Shown here piece after piece: positions 960 through 38,681 of a DNA stretch of 49,628 bases (position 1 is its first letter; every line of letters starts with the position of its first letter). The stretch comes from a virus. The translations under genes were made by a program, and so were the position numbers. Below the pieces are notes generated by a model, which saw nothing but the letters and a program-made list of their open reading frames with translations, searched no databases and was not told the origin of the DNA. The stretch is taken from positions 1-49,628 of the IMG/VR virus record IMGVR_UViG_3300037487_003269. One strand, 5' to 3'.

Positions 960-1076
960 CTATTTACAGACTTTATCCAGAGCAGCCCAGCACGCGACAC
1001 CGACGACGCGGCAGCAGTAGCGGGCCGAAGTCCAGCCGACGCCAATGACAAAAACGGTCACAAAAAGTTCGACCAT
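960..1076 (-). CDS. 38-residue membrane peptide
   Basis: A short leftward gene starting at an ATG (1076) preceded by AAGAGGT. The product begins MVELFVTVFVIGVGW, one hydrophobic segment, followed by a Cys/Arg-containing tail ending DKVCK. It lies 16 bases upstream of the leftward gene at 722-943 and probably shares its transcript. No family recognised; support is the ribosome-binding site, the hydrophobic N-terminus and the operon-like spacing. Confidence 0.5.
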   Translation of the reverse strand: MVELFVTVFVIGVGWTSARYCCRVVGVACWAALDKVCK

Positions 1077-1239: not shown

Positions 1240-1410
1240 GGCTTATATCCCCTGATACTCAAGGGCTAGGTGGATATCTAAGAAGCGGTAAAAAAGTTCT
1301 TTCAAATTCGGGGCATGTAGTATTAAATGGCTCGGCAATCAAAACATTCAAAAGACTACACAGTGCGCAGGAATATTAGGAGAGTTGGCTGACTGTTTGG
1401 CCAGCGGATA

Positions 1411-1532
1411 AAAAGAAAGCCCCCAGCTTGCAACTGAAAGGGCATCGAAACAAACAATCAAAAGTCGATGAATAGGCACACCGAACTTACGATAGTTGCA
1501 GTTTCGATGCAAGAGTAAAAGCTAGCTGGGGG
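1411..1532 (-). ncRNA. candidate leftward structured small RNA upstream of the initiator gene
   Basis: Three perfect inverted repeats are interleaved. CCCCCAGCT (1420-1428) pairs with AGCTGGGGG (1524-1532). TGCAACT (1429-1435) pairs with AGTTGCA (1494-1500). GCATCGAAAC (1442-1451) pairs with GTTTCGATGC (1501-1510). The first pair encloses the other two, which cross each other, so they form either a pseudoknot or two mutually exclusive stems. On the minus strand the closing stem is followed by CTTTCTTTTT (1411-1419 complement), a terminator-like tail, so a leftward RNA of roughly 120 bases is the better reading. The position just upstream of an O-like gene recalls lambda oop RNA; that comparison is inference. 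On the plus strand the same repeats would fold in the initiator leader. Confidence 0.5.
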
Positions 1533-1557
1533 AGTAAAACGACATGGAGCGTCGTGC

Positions 1558-2619
1558 ATGCTTTCTCAGGGATACTGTAAATTCTCTCGCGGTTGGAAAC
1601 ACGAGCCACGCTCACCGTTCTACGGCGCGAAGTATCGTAACTATTACGAGGTGTGGCGGGAGCTATGCGAACAAGCTGGCTTCTCCAACGACTTTGGAAT
1701 GACTCTCGGTTTGGTCAGCATCACCGTATCTGAACTTGCCGACGCCGTCGGGGTTCCTCATCGCTCTTGTCTCAACGCCATCAAGTGGATAGCGGGGCAG
1801 GGTCTGATTGAAATTGTGAGAAGCCAGCCCAGTCTCTCGATTGCCATTAGTCGGTACGAAAAGCTCAATTGCCTAAAGCTGTATTTTGGCTGGGAATCGA
1901 CACCTGACGAAATGGCTGAAACATCTGGCGCATTGGTTTCGCCCTATGAAAATAGGGTTAATATCACTCAAACCGAAACTGAAAAAACATCTGGCGCATG
2001 GAAATCCATACCTAACGATCTTGAATCGTTGGCAAATATGGAATGTGAAAAAACCATCTGGCGTATGCCAAAAACATCTGGCGTCTATCTGGCGCATGAC
2101 GAGGGGGGGTTAATGGCGCGTAATCACAGGAAAAAAGAAGGGGTCGAAAAAACATCTGGCGTGCATCTGGCGCACAAAACGGACGTTCTTAAGAATAGAG
2201 AAGAGAATACAACTACTCTAAAGAGTAGTAGTAGGCGGCTCGCGCAAAGGCGCAAGCCTACCCGGACACCGACAAGTGAGGAAATTCAATTAGCCACATT
2301 CTGGCACGAAGTAATCACAAGCCGGAGTAAGTCGAATCTCATCACCGTTGATGAGCAGGTCGACGGTCTTATTTCTTTTGTCGACAAAACCAAGGTCAGT
2401 ACCGACCTCATCCGGGAGGTACTTACCTGGGCAGCAACCAACAAGTATTGGGTAAAGCAAGTAAGGTGCTTGGCCGAGCTTTACTTACCCTCTAGGCAGT
2501 CGAAGTCGGTTAGGCGTTTTCAGGCGATGGTCGATGACTGGGAGTACCAGCAAGAGGCCAGCGCCAAGAAGAAGTCCGAGCAACCAAAGGTATCGAAGTG
2601 GGCTGGGGATATTATTTAA
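1558..2619 (+). CDS. lambda-O-like replication initiator with in-gene origin
   Basis: A 353-residue protein. Residues about 53-88 (ITVSELADAVGVPHRSCL then GLIEIV) form a winged helix-turn-helix like those of phage O/DnaD-type initiators. Residues 122-205 are low in complexity because they are encoded by DNA repeats read in all three frames. Residues about 228-330 are a helical domain, and the tail is Lys/Gln-rich. The next gene is a DnaB-family helicase, the expected partner. The start at 1558 has GGAG eight bases upstream, and an in-frame stop at 1516 rules out a longer form with ATG or GTG. By analogy with lambda O, it should bind the iterons inside its own gene and recruit the helicase; this is inferred from architecture, not from a strong family match. 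Confidence 0.7.
   Translation: MLSQGYCKFSRGWKHEPRSPFYGAKYRNYYEVWRELCEQAGFSNDFGMTLGLVSITVSELADAVGVPHRSCLNAIKWIAGQGLIEIVRSQPSLSIAISRYEKLNCLKLYFGWESTPDEMAETSGALVSPYENRVNITQTETEKTSGAWKSIPNDLESLANMECEKTIWRMPKTSGVYLAHDEGGLMARNHRKKEGVEKTSGVHLAHKTDVLKNREENTTTLKSSSRRLAQRRKPTRTPTSEEIQLATFWHEVITSRSKSNLITVDEQVDGLISFVDKTKVSTDLIREVLTWAATNKYWVKQVRCLAELYLPSRQSKSVRRFQAMVDDWEYQQEASAKKKSEQPKVSKWAGDII
1921..2229. other. probable phage replication origin: iterons, AT-rich segment, inverted repeat
   Basis: Seven direct copies of ATCTGGCG (usually within ACATCTGGCGCATGG) start at 1923, 1989, 2056, 2076, 2087, 2154 and 2165. The offsets are 66, 67, 20, 11, 67 and 11. They are read in all three codon phases (Thr-Ser-Gly, Ile-Trp-Arg and Leu-Ala), so the DNA rather than the protein is conserved. 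To the right lie a purine/AT-rich stretch (about 2176-2211) and a perfect 8-bp inverted repeat, ACTACTCT-AA-AGAGTAGT (2212-2229). The order of iterons, AT-rich tract and palindrome inside an initiator gene matches the known lambda origin inside gene O. Confidence 0.75.
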
Positions 2620-2641: not shown

Positions 2642-3928
2642 ATGCTAGACGCGGAACAACTTTTAATCAGTGAGACGTTGAAAAACCCAGAGCTCTTGGA
2701 GACGTTCATCGGCGAGGGGATAAAAGCCTCGTCCTTCTTTCGGGACGACTGCCGGGAGATATGGAAGGCCATTATCACGAGTCCGCAGGAGAACGGCAAG
2801 TTTGACTCGATGTTGACCCTCCAGCGATTGCCCCAGGAACTATTTTCTTTGGGAGCCGCCTACCTTGTAGAAGACTCGACGACTCAAAATCTGGTCGCCT
2901 TGGCCCGCGAAGTTGTCACGGGTGATAAGGCTCGCAGAGCGGCGCTGCTTGCATCGGCTGCGGTCAGAGAACTAACAGCTAGAAAAGTGGGCGACTCTAT
3001 TGGCCCAATCATTGCCAAGCTGGAGGCAGATTTAAACAGCCTAAAGATTTCCGATGCTGACGTGGCCGAGCGCCGGGGTACTGAGGTGATCTCGGAGATT
3101 ATGGAAGACTTTGACGCGCTCATAAAGGGCGAAGCTCCACCGCGCATCACGACGGGATTTCCAAAGCTCGACAAGATCCTTGGGGGCGGCTTTAACCGGG
3201 GAGAGTATTCCATTCTGGCAGCGCGTACCGGGGTCGGGAAGACTACGGCAGCGCTTTGGATGGCATCGTCGGCTGCTATTGCTGGCCATAAGACGCTCTA
3301 TGTCACGGTCGAGATGAAAGCCAAGAAGCTACTAGCGAAGGCCATTGCCTCGCACGGTGGGCTAAGTCTGTCGAAGTACCATACGGCTGACTGGACCCAG
3401 GAGGACCAAGACAGATTCCACAACGGGGCTAATAAGATCCTTCTCGGGGATAATTTGTATTTCCTCGACAACTCTAGGCGCTCAATTGAGCGGGTTATGT
3501 CTCGCGCCAAGTTCATGAAGCGAACTGGCGGGCTAGATTTCCTGGTGATTGACTATGTGCAGCAGTTTAAAACATCGAACCGGCACGCTAAGCGCAACGA
3601 GATGATGCTAGAGATTTCCGCCATGATGCAGGAGCTGGCTAAGGATCTGGATATCGGTGTCCTATGCCTGGCCCAGCTCAACCGCGATGCTGCCAAGTCT
3701 GAATTTCCCGTTGCCTACCAGATCAAGGACTCGGGCGACTTTGAGCAAGACGCCGACGCGGTCATCTTGGTGCATAAGTTCCTGGGCGATGACCACCGAC
3801 CTACGGGCAATTACGCCATGATTGTCGAGAAGGTGAGAGACGGGCGCAGCAACGTCATGTTTCACCTGGAAGGCCGTCACGACATTGGCCGTCTGATAGA
3901 GATCGAGGGTAATGACATAGATGTATGA
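2642..3928 (+). CDS. DnaB-family replicative helicase
   Basis: A 428-residue protein with the layout of replicative helicases. An N-terminal helical domain (about 1-110) is followed by a linker, then TTGFPKLDKILGGGF (170-184) leading into the RecA-like ATPase. Walker A is AARTGVGKT (193-201). Walker B is LVIDYVQQ (301-308), with the catalytic-type Asp at 304. Downstream, LAQLNRDAA and DSGDFEQDADAVI are the DnaB C-terminal signatures. It would unwind DNA at the fork as a hexamer. I chose ATG 2642, with GGGAG nine bases upstream, over the upstream start at 2534, which would overlap the initiator gene by 86 bases. No separate loader gene was recognised. Confidence 0.92.
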   Translation: MLDAEQLLISETLKNPELLETFIGEGIKASSFFRDDCREIWKAIITSPQENGKFDSMLTLQRLPQELFSLGAAYLVEDSTTQNLVALAREVVTGDKARRAALLASAAVRELTARKVGDSIGPIIAKLEADLNSLKISDADVAERRGTEVISEIMEDFDALIKGEAPPRITTGFPKLDKILGGGFNRGEYSILAARTGVGKTTAALWMASSAAIAGHKTLYVTVEMKAKKLLAKAIASHGGLSLSKYHTADWTQEDQDRFHNGANKILLGDNLYFLDNSRRSIERVMSRAKFMKRTGGLDFLVIDYVQQFKTSNRHAKRNEMMLEISAMMQELAKDLDIGVLCLAQLNRDAAKSEFPVAYQIKDSGDFEQDADAVILVHKFLGDDHRPTGNYAMIVEKVRDGRSNVMFHLEGRHDIGRLIEIEGNDIDV

Positions 3929-4084: not shown

Positions 4085-4474
4085 ATGCAGCTTAAAGAGC
4101 GCCAGATTTGGAAGACAAGAGGTGGTTACCGAGTATCTGTTTATTTTGTAGGCAGTGAGCAGGCAGCTATTGGCTCGGCCTCGGGCTGTCAGTCACTCAC
4201 GCCCGGGAGTGGCCATGTCTTGTACGTCGGTCTCGACGGCAAAGCTTTGGGCTACGACCGTGAAGAGTTCGACCTCGTTGAATATCTTGGTTACGAGATT
4301 GATCTATCTAATCGTGAGGGCGTTCAATGTTTTGGCTTATGGATTAACGACTGTCTCAAAAGCCTATCGGCAGTCTCGGACGATAAAGCGAAGCCCGCGA
4401 TTGATAACATGCGCTCGCGTATCAAAGAGATATGCGAGGGATATCCTAACGGCCTGCCGCTAACTCACGAGTGA
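4085..4474 (+). CDS. hypothetical early protein, 129 aa
   Basis: No family recognised. It has an N-terminal beta-rich half (RQIWKTRGGYRVSVYFVGSE), followed by an acidic and then a helical half with Arg/Lys. The start ATG has GAGGGG a few bases upstream. The end of the gene and its link to the next (coding LTHE, stop, GAGAGCAATATG) closely resemble the end of the following gene (LTHK, stop, GAGGACAACATG), so this junction is a repeated module. It lies 156 bases after the helicase gene and begins a run of small early genes. Confidence 0.7.
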   Translation: MQLKERQIWKTRGGYRVSVYFVGSEQAAIGSASGCQSLTPGSGHVLYVGLDGKALGYDREEFDLVEYLGYEIDLSNREGVQCFGLWINDCLKSLSAVSDDKAKPAIDNMRSRIKEICEGYPNGLPLTHE

Positions 4475-4481
4475 GAGCAAT

Positions 4482-4964
4482 ATGATGACGGATAAAGAAC
4501 TGCGTCGATTAGACATGTATATGGGCGGGGAGATCGCCAAAAGGTGGCCGCTGCGTTACCGCAACCGCCGTAGTGGTATGTGGATTTTCACCTTGCCAAG
4601 CGGAAACCTTAGTAATCTTCGTCTTTACGAATATCACCATCCGAAGATGCACCAAGTCAGTGTTGTCCGCGTCAGTGATATATTTTCAATTCCAGCGTCA
4701 GTTGAAGACCCTTACATAAACACCAAGGCCAAGCCAAAATTAAAGCTTAGCTTTCTTCCCGAAGAGGCCGAGCTAGTCATTCCGTGGGCGCTTGACAATT
4801 ACGTTGCTAAGAGTGGTGACTATCCGGCGTTTATGGCTGAGCATTGGAAAGGAAACTTCGAGGAAGACAACGACGGGTATTTCTGGAGTCAATCGGCTTG
4901 GGATAAGGCGAGGCTAACGAGCCTAGCGTTGACGGCATCCCAGATGTCACTAACCCACAAGTGA
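4482..4964 (+). CDS. hypothetical early protein, 160 aa
   Basis: No family recognised. It is rich in Tyr, Trp and Arg near the N-terminus (MYMGGEIAKRWPLRYRNRRS) with a mixed alpha/beta pattern. Two ATG codons in tandem open the gene after GTGAGAG. It shares its 3' junction sequence with the preceding gene and is followed eight bases later by the next one, so the early genes here are probably one operon. Confidence 0.7.
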   Translation: MMTDKELRRLDMYMGGEIAKRWPLRYRNRRSGMWIFTLPSGNLSNLRLYEYHHPKMHQVSVVRVSDIFSIPASVEDPYINTKAKPKLKLSFLPEEAELVIPWALDNYVAKSGDYPAFMAEHWKGNFEEDNDGYFWSQSAWDKARLTSLALTASQMSLTHK

Positions 4965-5216: not shown

Positions 5217-5495
5217 ATGAATATTATTGATGCGATTAAGAGTGGTAAGAGATTTCGGCGAATAGCCTGGAAAATTAGCGACTGGGTAAGCCAAGACTGG
5301 GACGATTGGTGGTTAAGATTAACTCGCGAGGATGTGAAAGCCGAGGATTGGGAAGTCGAGGAAGTTAGCTGCTATGCCGGATCTGCCATGATTACCCGCG
5401 AGCAGTTTGATAAAGCTTGGCACAATGCGTTTACGTCTAATGAGCCATACGGGAACCTGTCTCGCGACGAGTTGGCAAAAGAGCTTGGCCTATGA
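5217..5495 (+). CDS. small phage protein, first of a tandem paralogous pair
   Basis: A 92-residue protein. It shares with the next gene the N-terminus MNIIxAIKSGxRFRR, a central DDWE/EDWEVE block, the motif MITREQFDxA, and the end LAKELGL or LTKELGL. The layout (AIKSG-hydrophobic-Arg-Arg, then an acidic DW strand) is common in small phage proteins and faintly resembles DUF2829, the family that contains the Thoeris inhibitor Tad2. The resemblance is too weak to assign function. It overlaps the next gene by ATGA. Confidence 0.7.
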   Translation: MNIIDAIKSGKRFRRIAWKISDWVSQDWDDWWLRLTREDVKAEDWEVEEVSCYAGSAMITREQFDKAWHNAFTSNEPYGNLSRDELAKELGL

Positions 5496-21490: not shown

Positions 21491-22129
21491 ATGATTAAAC
21501 AATTATTGATAGTTGGTTTACTTGTTAGCTGCGGCAAAGAGGAAAAAAAGAAAGATCCTCCGCCGCCAGTGATTGTGCAACCGCAGCCGCCGTCTGACGG
21601 TGGTAGTGGCTGGCCTATACCTGGATTTCCCAGTATTCCAGGTATGCCGCAGCTCCCGAGCTTCCCCGGTATTCCGGGATTTCCCAACCTGCCCAACTTG
21701 CCGGGACCTGGTCTGCCAGGATCCCCAAGTGAGCCAATGCCGCCCGATGCTGGAAGCCCACCACCTCCCGCCTCGGACCAAGTTACGGCGCTTATAGTCG
21801 AGATCAACCGAGTCAGAAGTGAGCGCGGTCTTCCCACGGTAGTTGCAACTCCAGGTCTCACCTGTGCGGCCCAGCGCCATGCAAATGACGTTGGCGTGCG
21901 GGGATCGTGTTCGCACAGTGGGTCAGACGGGTCTAGCCCGTGGGACAGGGCATCGGGCTGCGGCGCATCGGCAGACGGCGAGATAATTGCCTGTGGCCAA
22001 GGTACACCCGCCGAGGCCGTACAAGCCTGGACCTATAGCCCTGGTCACGCTGCCATCATGTATGACAGGAACCAGAGCGAAGTTGGCGCGGCTATGGTCA
22101 ACAATTACTGGGTTGTGATATGGAAATAG
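21491..22129 (+). CDS. lipoprotein with Pro/Gly-rich stalk and CAP domain
   Basis: A 212-residue protein. The signal peptide ends in a lipobox (LLVSC, Cys 14). Then comes a stalk (about 20-95) of Pro and Gly with collagen-like GxPG spacing, then a CAP/SCP domain (about 97-212): VEINRVRSERGLP, SCSHSGSDGSSPWDRA, WTYSPGHAAIMYD and NNYWVVIWK. CAP proteins are secreted and often bind lipid or cell wall. A phage-encoded CAP lipoprotein could alter the host surface or block superinfection; both are inference. AAGGAG precedes the ATG. A terminator separates it from a convergent CAP gene. Confidence 0.85.
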   Translation: MIKQLLIVGLLVSCGKEEKKKDPPPPVIVQPQPPSDGGSGWPIPGFPSIPGMPQLPSFPGIPGFPNLPNLPGPGLPGSPSEPMPPDAGSPPPPASDQVTALIVEINRVRSERGLPTVVATPGLTCAAQRHANDVGVRGSCSHSGSDGSSPWDRASGCGASADGEIIACGQGTPAEAVQAWTYSPGHAAIMYDRNQSEVGAAMVNNYWVVIWK

Positions 22130-22145
22130 CATCTCATTAGCTTCA

Positions 22146-22179
22146 GGGAATCCCCTTCGCCAGGGGGGTTCCCATTTTT
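22146..22179 (+). terminator. terminator between convergent CAP genes
   Basis: GGGAATCCCC and GGGGGGTTCCC flank a TTCGCCA loop, with ATTTTTA after it on the plus strand. The stem could also stop the convergent leftward transcript. Confidence 0.75.
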
Positions 22180-22765
22180 ACTTCCTCGGCATTCCCGTAC
22201 ACTTCATGAATCCTGGATCTAGCGAATAAACATTGGTGTCATACTTGCCGGCTACATTACCCGCTGGGCTATAGCGGCATACATAATAGTTTTCATCCCC
22301 GCACTTAGCCGACCCACAGCCAAGCTCAACCGTCTCTCTCCATACGATCTGACTAAACTCAGCCGTCGCAGGTGTCCCGTTTTTATCTCCGTATGGGTAA
22401 TAAATAAACGGCAGATACCAGTTATCTTGCGCCTTGATCTGGCCCAGTACTTTACCGTGAGCAATGTTTTCGCCGAGGCTGCCAAAAATGGCAGGGTCTT
22501 TCTTCAGCGTACACTTAGCCGCGTGAGCCCTAGCACCATCGGCTAGTCTCTCGGACCACTTGATATCACCCACACGGTGCCAACAACGCTTGAGATTATG
22601 AAAAACCATGTACTGCTCTCGCTCGACAATGCCTCCAGGGGCGCCAGGATTAGCTGGTGATGTCGGCCCTGATGGAGCTGTTGGTACTGTCTGCCCCTCC
22701 TTGTCGTCGTCGCTTTTGTGTGAACACGAAACGGCAAGCAAGGCAGCAAAGACTAAACGGCGCAT
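22178..22765 (-). CDS. leftward CAP-domain lipoprotein
   Basis: A 195-residue protein. The signal peptide MRRLVFAALLAVSC is a lipobox with Cys 14. A short Pro/Thr/Ser linker follows. The CAP domain has HNLKRCWHRVGDIKWSERLADGARAHAAKC (in pieces), LGENIAHG, then the CAP1-like FSQIVWRETVELGCG and CAP2-like YYVCRYSPAGN. The His usually before the FSQIVW segment is Glu here. The start at 22765 has AGAGGT six bases upstream, and the longer frame to 22807 lacks such a site. It is antisense to the late operon and convergent with the other CAP gene, so it is likely a separately expressed insert. Confidence 0.87.
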   Translation of the reverse strand: MRRLVFAALLAVSCSHKSDDDKEGQTVPTAPSGPTSPANPGAPGGIVEREQYMVFHNLKRCWHRVGDIKWSERLADGARAHAAKCTLKKDPAIFGSLGENIAHGKVLGQIKAQDNWYLPFIYYPYGDKNGTPATAEFSQIVWRETVELGCGSAKCGDENYYVCRYSPAGNVAGKYDTNVYSLDPGFMKCTGMPRK

Positions 22766-22886
22766 AGTAGACCTCTTGAATGGTTGTTTATAAACTATAT
22801 TACGCAATCATCGAATAGCGACAAGGTCTTGCATATAACGCCGCGCAAATCTAAGCTGTTAGCTAAACATCCCCGGAGAAATTACG
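22766..22886. promoter_or_regulatory. divergent spacer with candidate leftward promoter
   Basis: On the minus strand TTGTCG and TAATAT are separated by 16 bases, a plausible sigma-70 promoter for the leftward CAP lipoprotein. The same spacer leads rightward into the head-tail connector genes. Confidence 0.35.
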
Positions 22887-38671: not shown

Positions 38672-38681
38672 CAGGTGACAC

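Follow-up and report, generated by a model that had tools for sequence, protein, structure and literature searches.

The DNA just upstream of a putative replication initiator gene in a tailed phage carries a 113-base structured element that is real and significant, is probably conserved in shape and position, to judge from one relative, and probably acts as a small control RNA for replication. We tentatively favor one form of this reading, in which the element is a leftward, self-terminating RNA, positioned like oop of phage lambda and antisense to the leader of the initiator mRNA.

The element and its gene neighborhood

The window that we analyzed, 49,628 bases long, is an entire IMG/VR record. 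It belongs to a tailed phage, encoding a terminase, an Erf-like annealing protein, a phage exonuclease and a DnaB helicase (Pfam and PHROG searches). The element is flanked on its left by small leftward genes (722-943 and 960-1076, minus strand) and on its right by a rightward block that starts at 1558; the long genes on that side run rightward. The features of the region, with the arms of the element given for the minus-strand RNA, are:

1410-1419, minus strand: U-rich tail (CUUUCUUUUU in leftward reading from 1419) with which the putative leftward RNA would end
1420-1428, minus strand: 3' arm of outer stem A, AGCUGGGGG, a 9-base pair with 1524-1532
1429-1435, minus strand: arm of pair B that adjoins A, a 7-base pair with 1494-1500
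1442-1451, minus strand: 3' arm of inner stem C, a 10-base pair with 1501-1510
1452-1500, minus strand: imperfect apical stem-loop inside C, holding B' (1494-1500) and an alternative partner of C (1465-1470)
1501-1510, minus strand: 5' arm of inner stem C, perfect pairing
1524-1532, minus strand: 5' arm of outer stem A, its edge 25 bases before the initiator ATG
1547-1550, plus strand: likely ribosome-binding site of the initiator, GGAG, 7 bases before the ATG at 1558
1558-2619, plus strand: gene read as an O-like replication initiator, 353 aa (winged-helix-like domain, adjoining DnaB gene, iterons)
about 1922-2172, plus strand: seven iterons, putative origin (six exact CATCTGGCG, one TATCTGGCG)
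2642-3928, plus strand: DnaB-like replicative helicase (PF03796, E 9.5e-47; phrog_19, E 3.7e-69)

Three perfect complementary pairs of 9, 7 and 10 bases span 1420-1532 in the order A-B-C-B'-C'-A', exactly as the first-pass annotation had described them: outer stem A (CCCCCAGCT, 1420-1428 with 1524-1532), pair B (TGCAACT, 1429-1435 with 1494-1500) and inner stem C (GCATCGAAAC, 1442-1451 with 1501-1510). Stems A and C are nested and B crosses C, a crossing that had also been annotated; B begins immediately after A, B' ends just before C' and abuts it, and C has an additional 6-base partner at 1465-1470. The nested pairing of 9 and 10 bases is far beyond chance. Two pairs of at least 9 bases together with a third of at least 7 occurred in none of 500 dinucleotide shuffles of the region, and nested 9/9 pairs in none of 400. 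Pairs of at least 7 bases arise about 0.54 times per shuffle, so that the length of B alone is unremarkable. Its position is unusual: when A and C are kept in place, P is 0.0145 for a pair of 7 or more bases that crosses, and 0.0002 for one that directly abuts C'.

At an E threshold of 0.001 the protein encoded downstream had no match in Pfam or PHROG; among its weak matches in PHROG are a replisome organizer and a DnaD-like loader. Its AlphaFold model is poor overall (mean pLDDT 40.8), and only residues 24-97 appear winged-helix-like. We read the protein as an O-like initiator from this predicted domain, the adjoining DnaB gene and the iterons within its gene.

The same topology and iteron spacing in one relative

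Among 2.9 million viral contigs a single relative was found, IMGVR_UViG_3300031999_000038 (hereafter L002), with a helicase 50% and an initiator 35% identical to those of the window. Beyond it, no initiator relatives were detected in viral contigs, genomes, phages or plasmids; DnaB queries returned the same contig and two unrelated phages; the records of twelve terminase relatives, many of them short fragments, held no matching initiator or helicase; and a degenerate DNA pattern of the initiator N-terminus added four chance matches.

Sequence alignment of the element with L002 is not meaningful, and the comparison of topology is a post hoc one, on two sequences only and with the window seen first. 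The order in L002 is likewise A-B-C-B'-C'-A', in different letters: stem A is TTTTACG (4796-4802 with 4879-4885), stem C is CCCACGAG (4811-4818 with 4859-4866), and pair B is CGATG (4801-4805) with CATCG (4854-4858), again crossing C and with B' abutting C'. From element to initiator start codon the distance is 27 bases in L002 and 25 in the window. Nested pairs of at least 7 bases appeared in 3 of 400 shuffles of the L002 stretch, and P is 0.009 for a B pair of 5 or more that adjoins C'. Pair B of L002 consists of just 5 pairs, two bases of which overlap A, and its B state is far less stable than its C state. On the minus strand, a GGCC hairpin followed by T8 comes after the L002 element, at the same place as the tail in the window; this hairpin competes with stem A because it is built from an A arm.

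A second shared design lies inside the initiator gene. In the window it contains seven plus-strand copies of ATCTGGCG, with gaps of 66, 67, 20, 11, 67 and 11, which occupy all three codon phases and are not locked to the reading frame, implying that they are kept as DNA and not as protein repeats. The L002 gene contains six copies of CCCGACC (5289-5471) with gaps of 67, 20, 11, 67 and 11. The spacing 67, 20, 11, 67, 11 is thus identical in the two phages, the letters are unrelated (ATCTGGCG vs CCCGACC), and the codon phases differ. Because the spacing is the same and the sequences unrelated in two relatives, we regard this as strong evidence for a putative lambda-like origin within the initiator gene whose specificity has changed in concert.

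It is unlikely, although worth stating, that the two elements represent a new class of phage control RNAs at the initiator gene, in which the sequence drifts completely and the shape is conserved, with an outer and an inner stem, an internal loop and a crossing pair that abuts the inner stem. If so, each phage could have, in addition to the specificity of its iterons, a specific regulator of an incompatibility-like kind.

Fold, strand and competing explanations

As RNA, the minus strand of the element folds into a single hairpin of 37 pairs (35 Watson-Crick, 2 G-U) with an 8-nt apical loop. Its first 11 pairs lead to a 10 x 10 internal loop, beyond which come the 10 pairs of C, capped by an imperfect apical stem. 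Shuffled versions average -25.2 kcal/mol and the hairpin reaches -50.1 (z -7.4), and in a GC-regressed energy scan of the 49.6-kb record (4,952 windows of 120 nt) the minus-strand window at 1421 ranked first for structure. The plus strand folds less well (-43.3 kcal/mol, z -5.9), a difference that is clearest in the apical part (1452-1500; -12.6 kcal/mol and z -2.9 on the minus strand vs -6.3 and z -0.8 on the plus strand).

The crossing of B and C had been taken to mean that the two pairs form a pseudoknot or alternate. The crossing stands, and the alternation is at odds with the energies: the A+C state is more stable than A+B, by about 15 kcal/mol in the minus-strand fold (-50.1 vs -34.9) and by about 13 in the plus-strand fold (-43.3 vs -29.9). 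Because the nested fold is so far ahead, a balanced switch is unlikely, and we rejected a riboswitch-like switch, which needs two states of comparable stability. The order of synthesis further weakens the alternating reading, since in a minus-strand RNA C closes on C' before B is synthesized. In a plus-strand RNA B' emerges before C', which makes a brief B:B' pairing conceivable. For a simultaneous pseudoknot, a 6-nt linker would have to bridge 17 stacked pairs, which is barely feasible.

The U-rich tail that had been annotated on the minus strand is present at 1410-1419, directly after the most structured window of the record; the outer stem passes directly into CUUUCUUUUUAUCC, and a terminator-like match lies at 1440-1420. 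As an intrinsic terminator the tail is only moderate (U score 2.5), with a local alternative hairpin at -6.3. The hairpin and T8 of L002 share this strand and place, and the central hairpin of L002 folds better on the minus strand (z -4.7 vs -3.4). Because the long genes to the right run rightward, a leftward terminator at this position has no evident protein gene to end, and the small leftward genes have a strong minus-strand promoter-like site of their own to the left of the element (-10 at 1327; counterpart in L002 with its -10 at 4575).

On this evidence we tentatively propose a leftward structured RNA of roughly 115-130 nt, which would start just upstream of, or inside, the first codons of the O-like gene and have its 3' end in the U-rich tail. 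It would be the exact antisense of the rightward initiator mRNA leader, the only evident cis target, since no cII-like gene was found upstream (the only plus-strand frame of at least 20 aa in 1050-1543 is a 21-aa frame at 1327-1392). By pairing with the leader, or through collision of its transcription with rightward transcription towards the iterons, such an RNA could hold down initiator synthesis or origin activation. We infer its transcription, length, antisense pairing and effect on replication alike. Against it, no good minus-strand promoter of the sigma-70-like type was found to the right of the element, and the tail of the window is no better than moderate. The whole L002 element scores equally on both strands (z -2.9 on each), and a longer stretch there (4781-4900) does better on the plus strand (z -3.1). 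Of the leftward structured RNA proposed in the first-pass annotation, then, the structure is borne out by its z-score and rank, and the leftward transcription lacks a good promoter.

The main rival, a serious one that we consider possible, is that the structure acts on the sense strand, within the untranslated 5' leader of the initiator mRNA, and governs how this mRNA is translated, how stable it is or whether it is attenuated; the crossing pair B would then be an alternative that forms transiently or is stabilized by a protein. The near-constant distance to the start codon, in elements whose sequence is not constant, fits such a leader and an antisense RNA alike. The precedence of B' over C' on the plus strand would allow a short-lived B:B' pairing, a weak plus-strand promoter-like site (TTGGCT-18-TAAAAA, -10 at 1409) would place the mRNA start at the edge of the element, and the plus-strand z of the longer L002 stretch points the same way. 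However, the apical stem of the window is at chance level on this strand, the U-tails of both phages are on the opposite one, the A+B alternative is 13 kcal/mol worse, and the structure stops about 14 bases short of the ribosome-binding site, which it leaves uncovered.

It is improbable that the element works at the DNA level, as inverted repeats bound by a phage protein such as the initiator or a repressor, or as hairpins extruded beside the origin, with no function as RNA. Both strands do fold with DNA energies (z -6.6 and -5.7), CATCGA occurs three times within the element, and the origin iterons are nearby; yet the iterons of that same initiator (CATCTGGCG) are unrelated to the element repeats and absent from the element even with one mismatch, CATCGA is widespread in the record (47 sites), and the minus-strand RNA folding bias and the U-tails would be left unexplained. 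Given how unlike the iterons its repeats are, we rejected the element as an initiator binding site.

Still less probable is that the element only terminates or insulates leftward transcription, as a barrier between the divergent modules, and makes no regulatory RNA. A minus-strand hairpin with a U-rich tail is present in both phages, but termination requires neither a structured interior of 95 nt nor an inner stem of 10 pairs, no leftward gene is evident to its right, and other, ordinary terminators in the record score better than this tail. Chance likeness or a functionless remnant, for which the lack of a homologue by sequence and the single relative available for comparison might speak, we dismiss as most improbable in view of the shuffle tests, the first rank in the record and the same topology in L002.

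Known initiator-linked RNAs and further features of the record

Antisense control of initiators is classical in plasmids; among phages lambda oop is the best-known case, tied to cII and disputed in its replication part. In the lambda layout oop-O-ori (PMC3985674, PMC3349717), oop is a self-terminating 77-nt antisense RNA to cII (PMC3349717, PMC5869508) with its end at 38,675 (PMC5869508). Replication of lambda is influenced by pO activity, and the oop RNA itself has been judged of little importance (PMC3985674); by analogy, the unaltered stability of O-P mRNA in the presence of oop (PMC3985674) would count against our leftward RNA.

The sequence of element, O-like gene with internal iterons and replication gene in the window matches the lambda layout. 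What the two have in common is, in position, a place on the leftward strand immediately before an O-like gene with internal iterons (oop 10 bases before O and iterons 348 bases into it in lambda; 25 and about 365 here) and, in form, a structured RNA with a U-tail, putative for the element, which has a hairpin and a U-rich tail of only moderate score. They differ in that oop consists of two separate hairpins and the element of one long, two-tier 37-pair hairpin with crossing complementarity; in that the 3' part of oop is antisense to the end of cII and no cII-like gene lies upstream here (1050-1543); and in that oop is transcribed from pO, whereas no good minus-strand promoter-like site was found to the right of the element. 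A blastn search of 1200-1800 against 50,697 phage records, lambda included, gave no match. Folded as a yardstick, oop has z -4.3 on its own strand vs -1.3 on the other, a lean in the same direction as that of the element, which speaks for the leftward RNA. We therefore rejected the element as lambda oop itself, given the missing cII overlap, the absence of sequence similarity and the single long hairpin; it may still act like oop or like the antisense RNAs of plasmid initiators. The parallel with oop drawn in the first-pass annotation accordingly holds for the position relative to O and for the U-rich tail, and fails for cII overlap and sequence similarity. The same annotation had called the fold different from that of oop and unrecognized, and it was right on both counts: Rfam models, including those of 6S RNA, riboswitches and ribozymes, gave no match at gathering score and none at E up to 5 for 1300-1620. 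A tRNA and tmRNA search was also negative.

CopA of R1 and RNAI (Inc RNA) of I-complex plasmids such as ColIb-P9 are self-folding antisense RNAs opposite the leader of an initiator mRNA. The element shares with them a stable stem-loop (37 pairs, 8-nt loop, z -7.4) and a position that fits a putative antisense role. They are plasmid-borne and it belongs to a tailed-phage record; the likeness lies in position and fold, rather than in an antisense transcript, a leader peptide or translational coupling. In ColIb-P9, antisense binding has a competitor in a pseudoknot of the sense RNA (PMC10724649); the pseudoknot partners of the element, by comparison, all lie within its hairpin. For a further replication initiator, dnaA of Bacillus subtilis, an RNA antisense to the untranslated 5' leader is likewise described, similar to the role proposed here, although that gene is chromosomal (PMC12112137).

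If the element is conserved, an oop-positioned RNA in phages with no detected cII-like gene would separate a replication role from a lysogeny role. Alongside the concerted iteron change, such an RNA would illustrate how phage replication modules keep their architecture while switching specificity.

Several other features of the record were observed. A tiny leftward membrane-like protein is encoded at 960-1076 on the minus strand of the window (MVELFVTVFVIGVGW) and at about 4402-4541 on that of L002 (MLELFSVALVIGLGW), its position conserved and a strong promoter-like site upstream in each. Close to the replication module is a gene for a GH5 cellulase (19-573; PF00150, E 3.4e-23), and L002 encodes at 1466-2647 a protein that is, by eye, clearly similar, with a lipoprotein-like signal at its start. 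Between the cellulase and the leftward genes, a strong minus-strand hairpin followed by a T run (680-730) is likely a terminator for converging modules. The hexamer CATCGA is found 47 times in the record against 23 in shuffles, a twofold excess that none of 100 shuffles attained. Finally, two genes at 21491-22129 and 22178-22807 converge on a strong hairpin at about 22135-22175 and encode proteins that look like lipoproteins, each having a Cys that follows its signal sequence (LLVSCGKEEKKK and LAVSCSHKSDDD); by eye the two resemble secreted SCP/CAP proteins.
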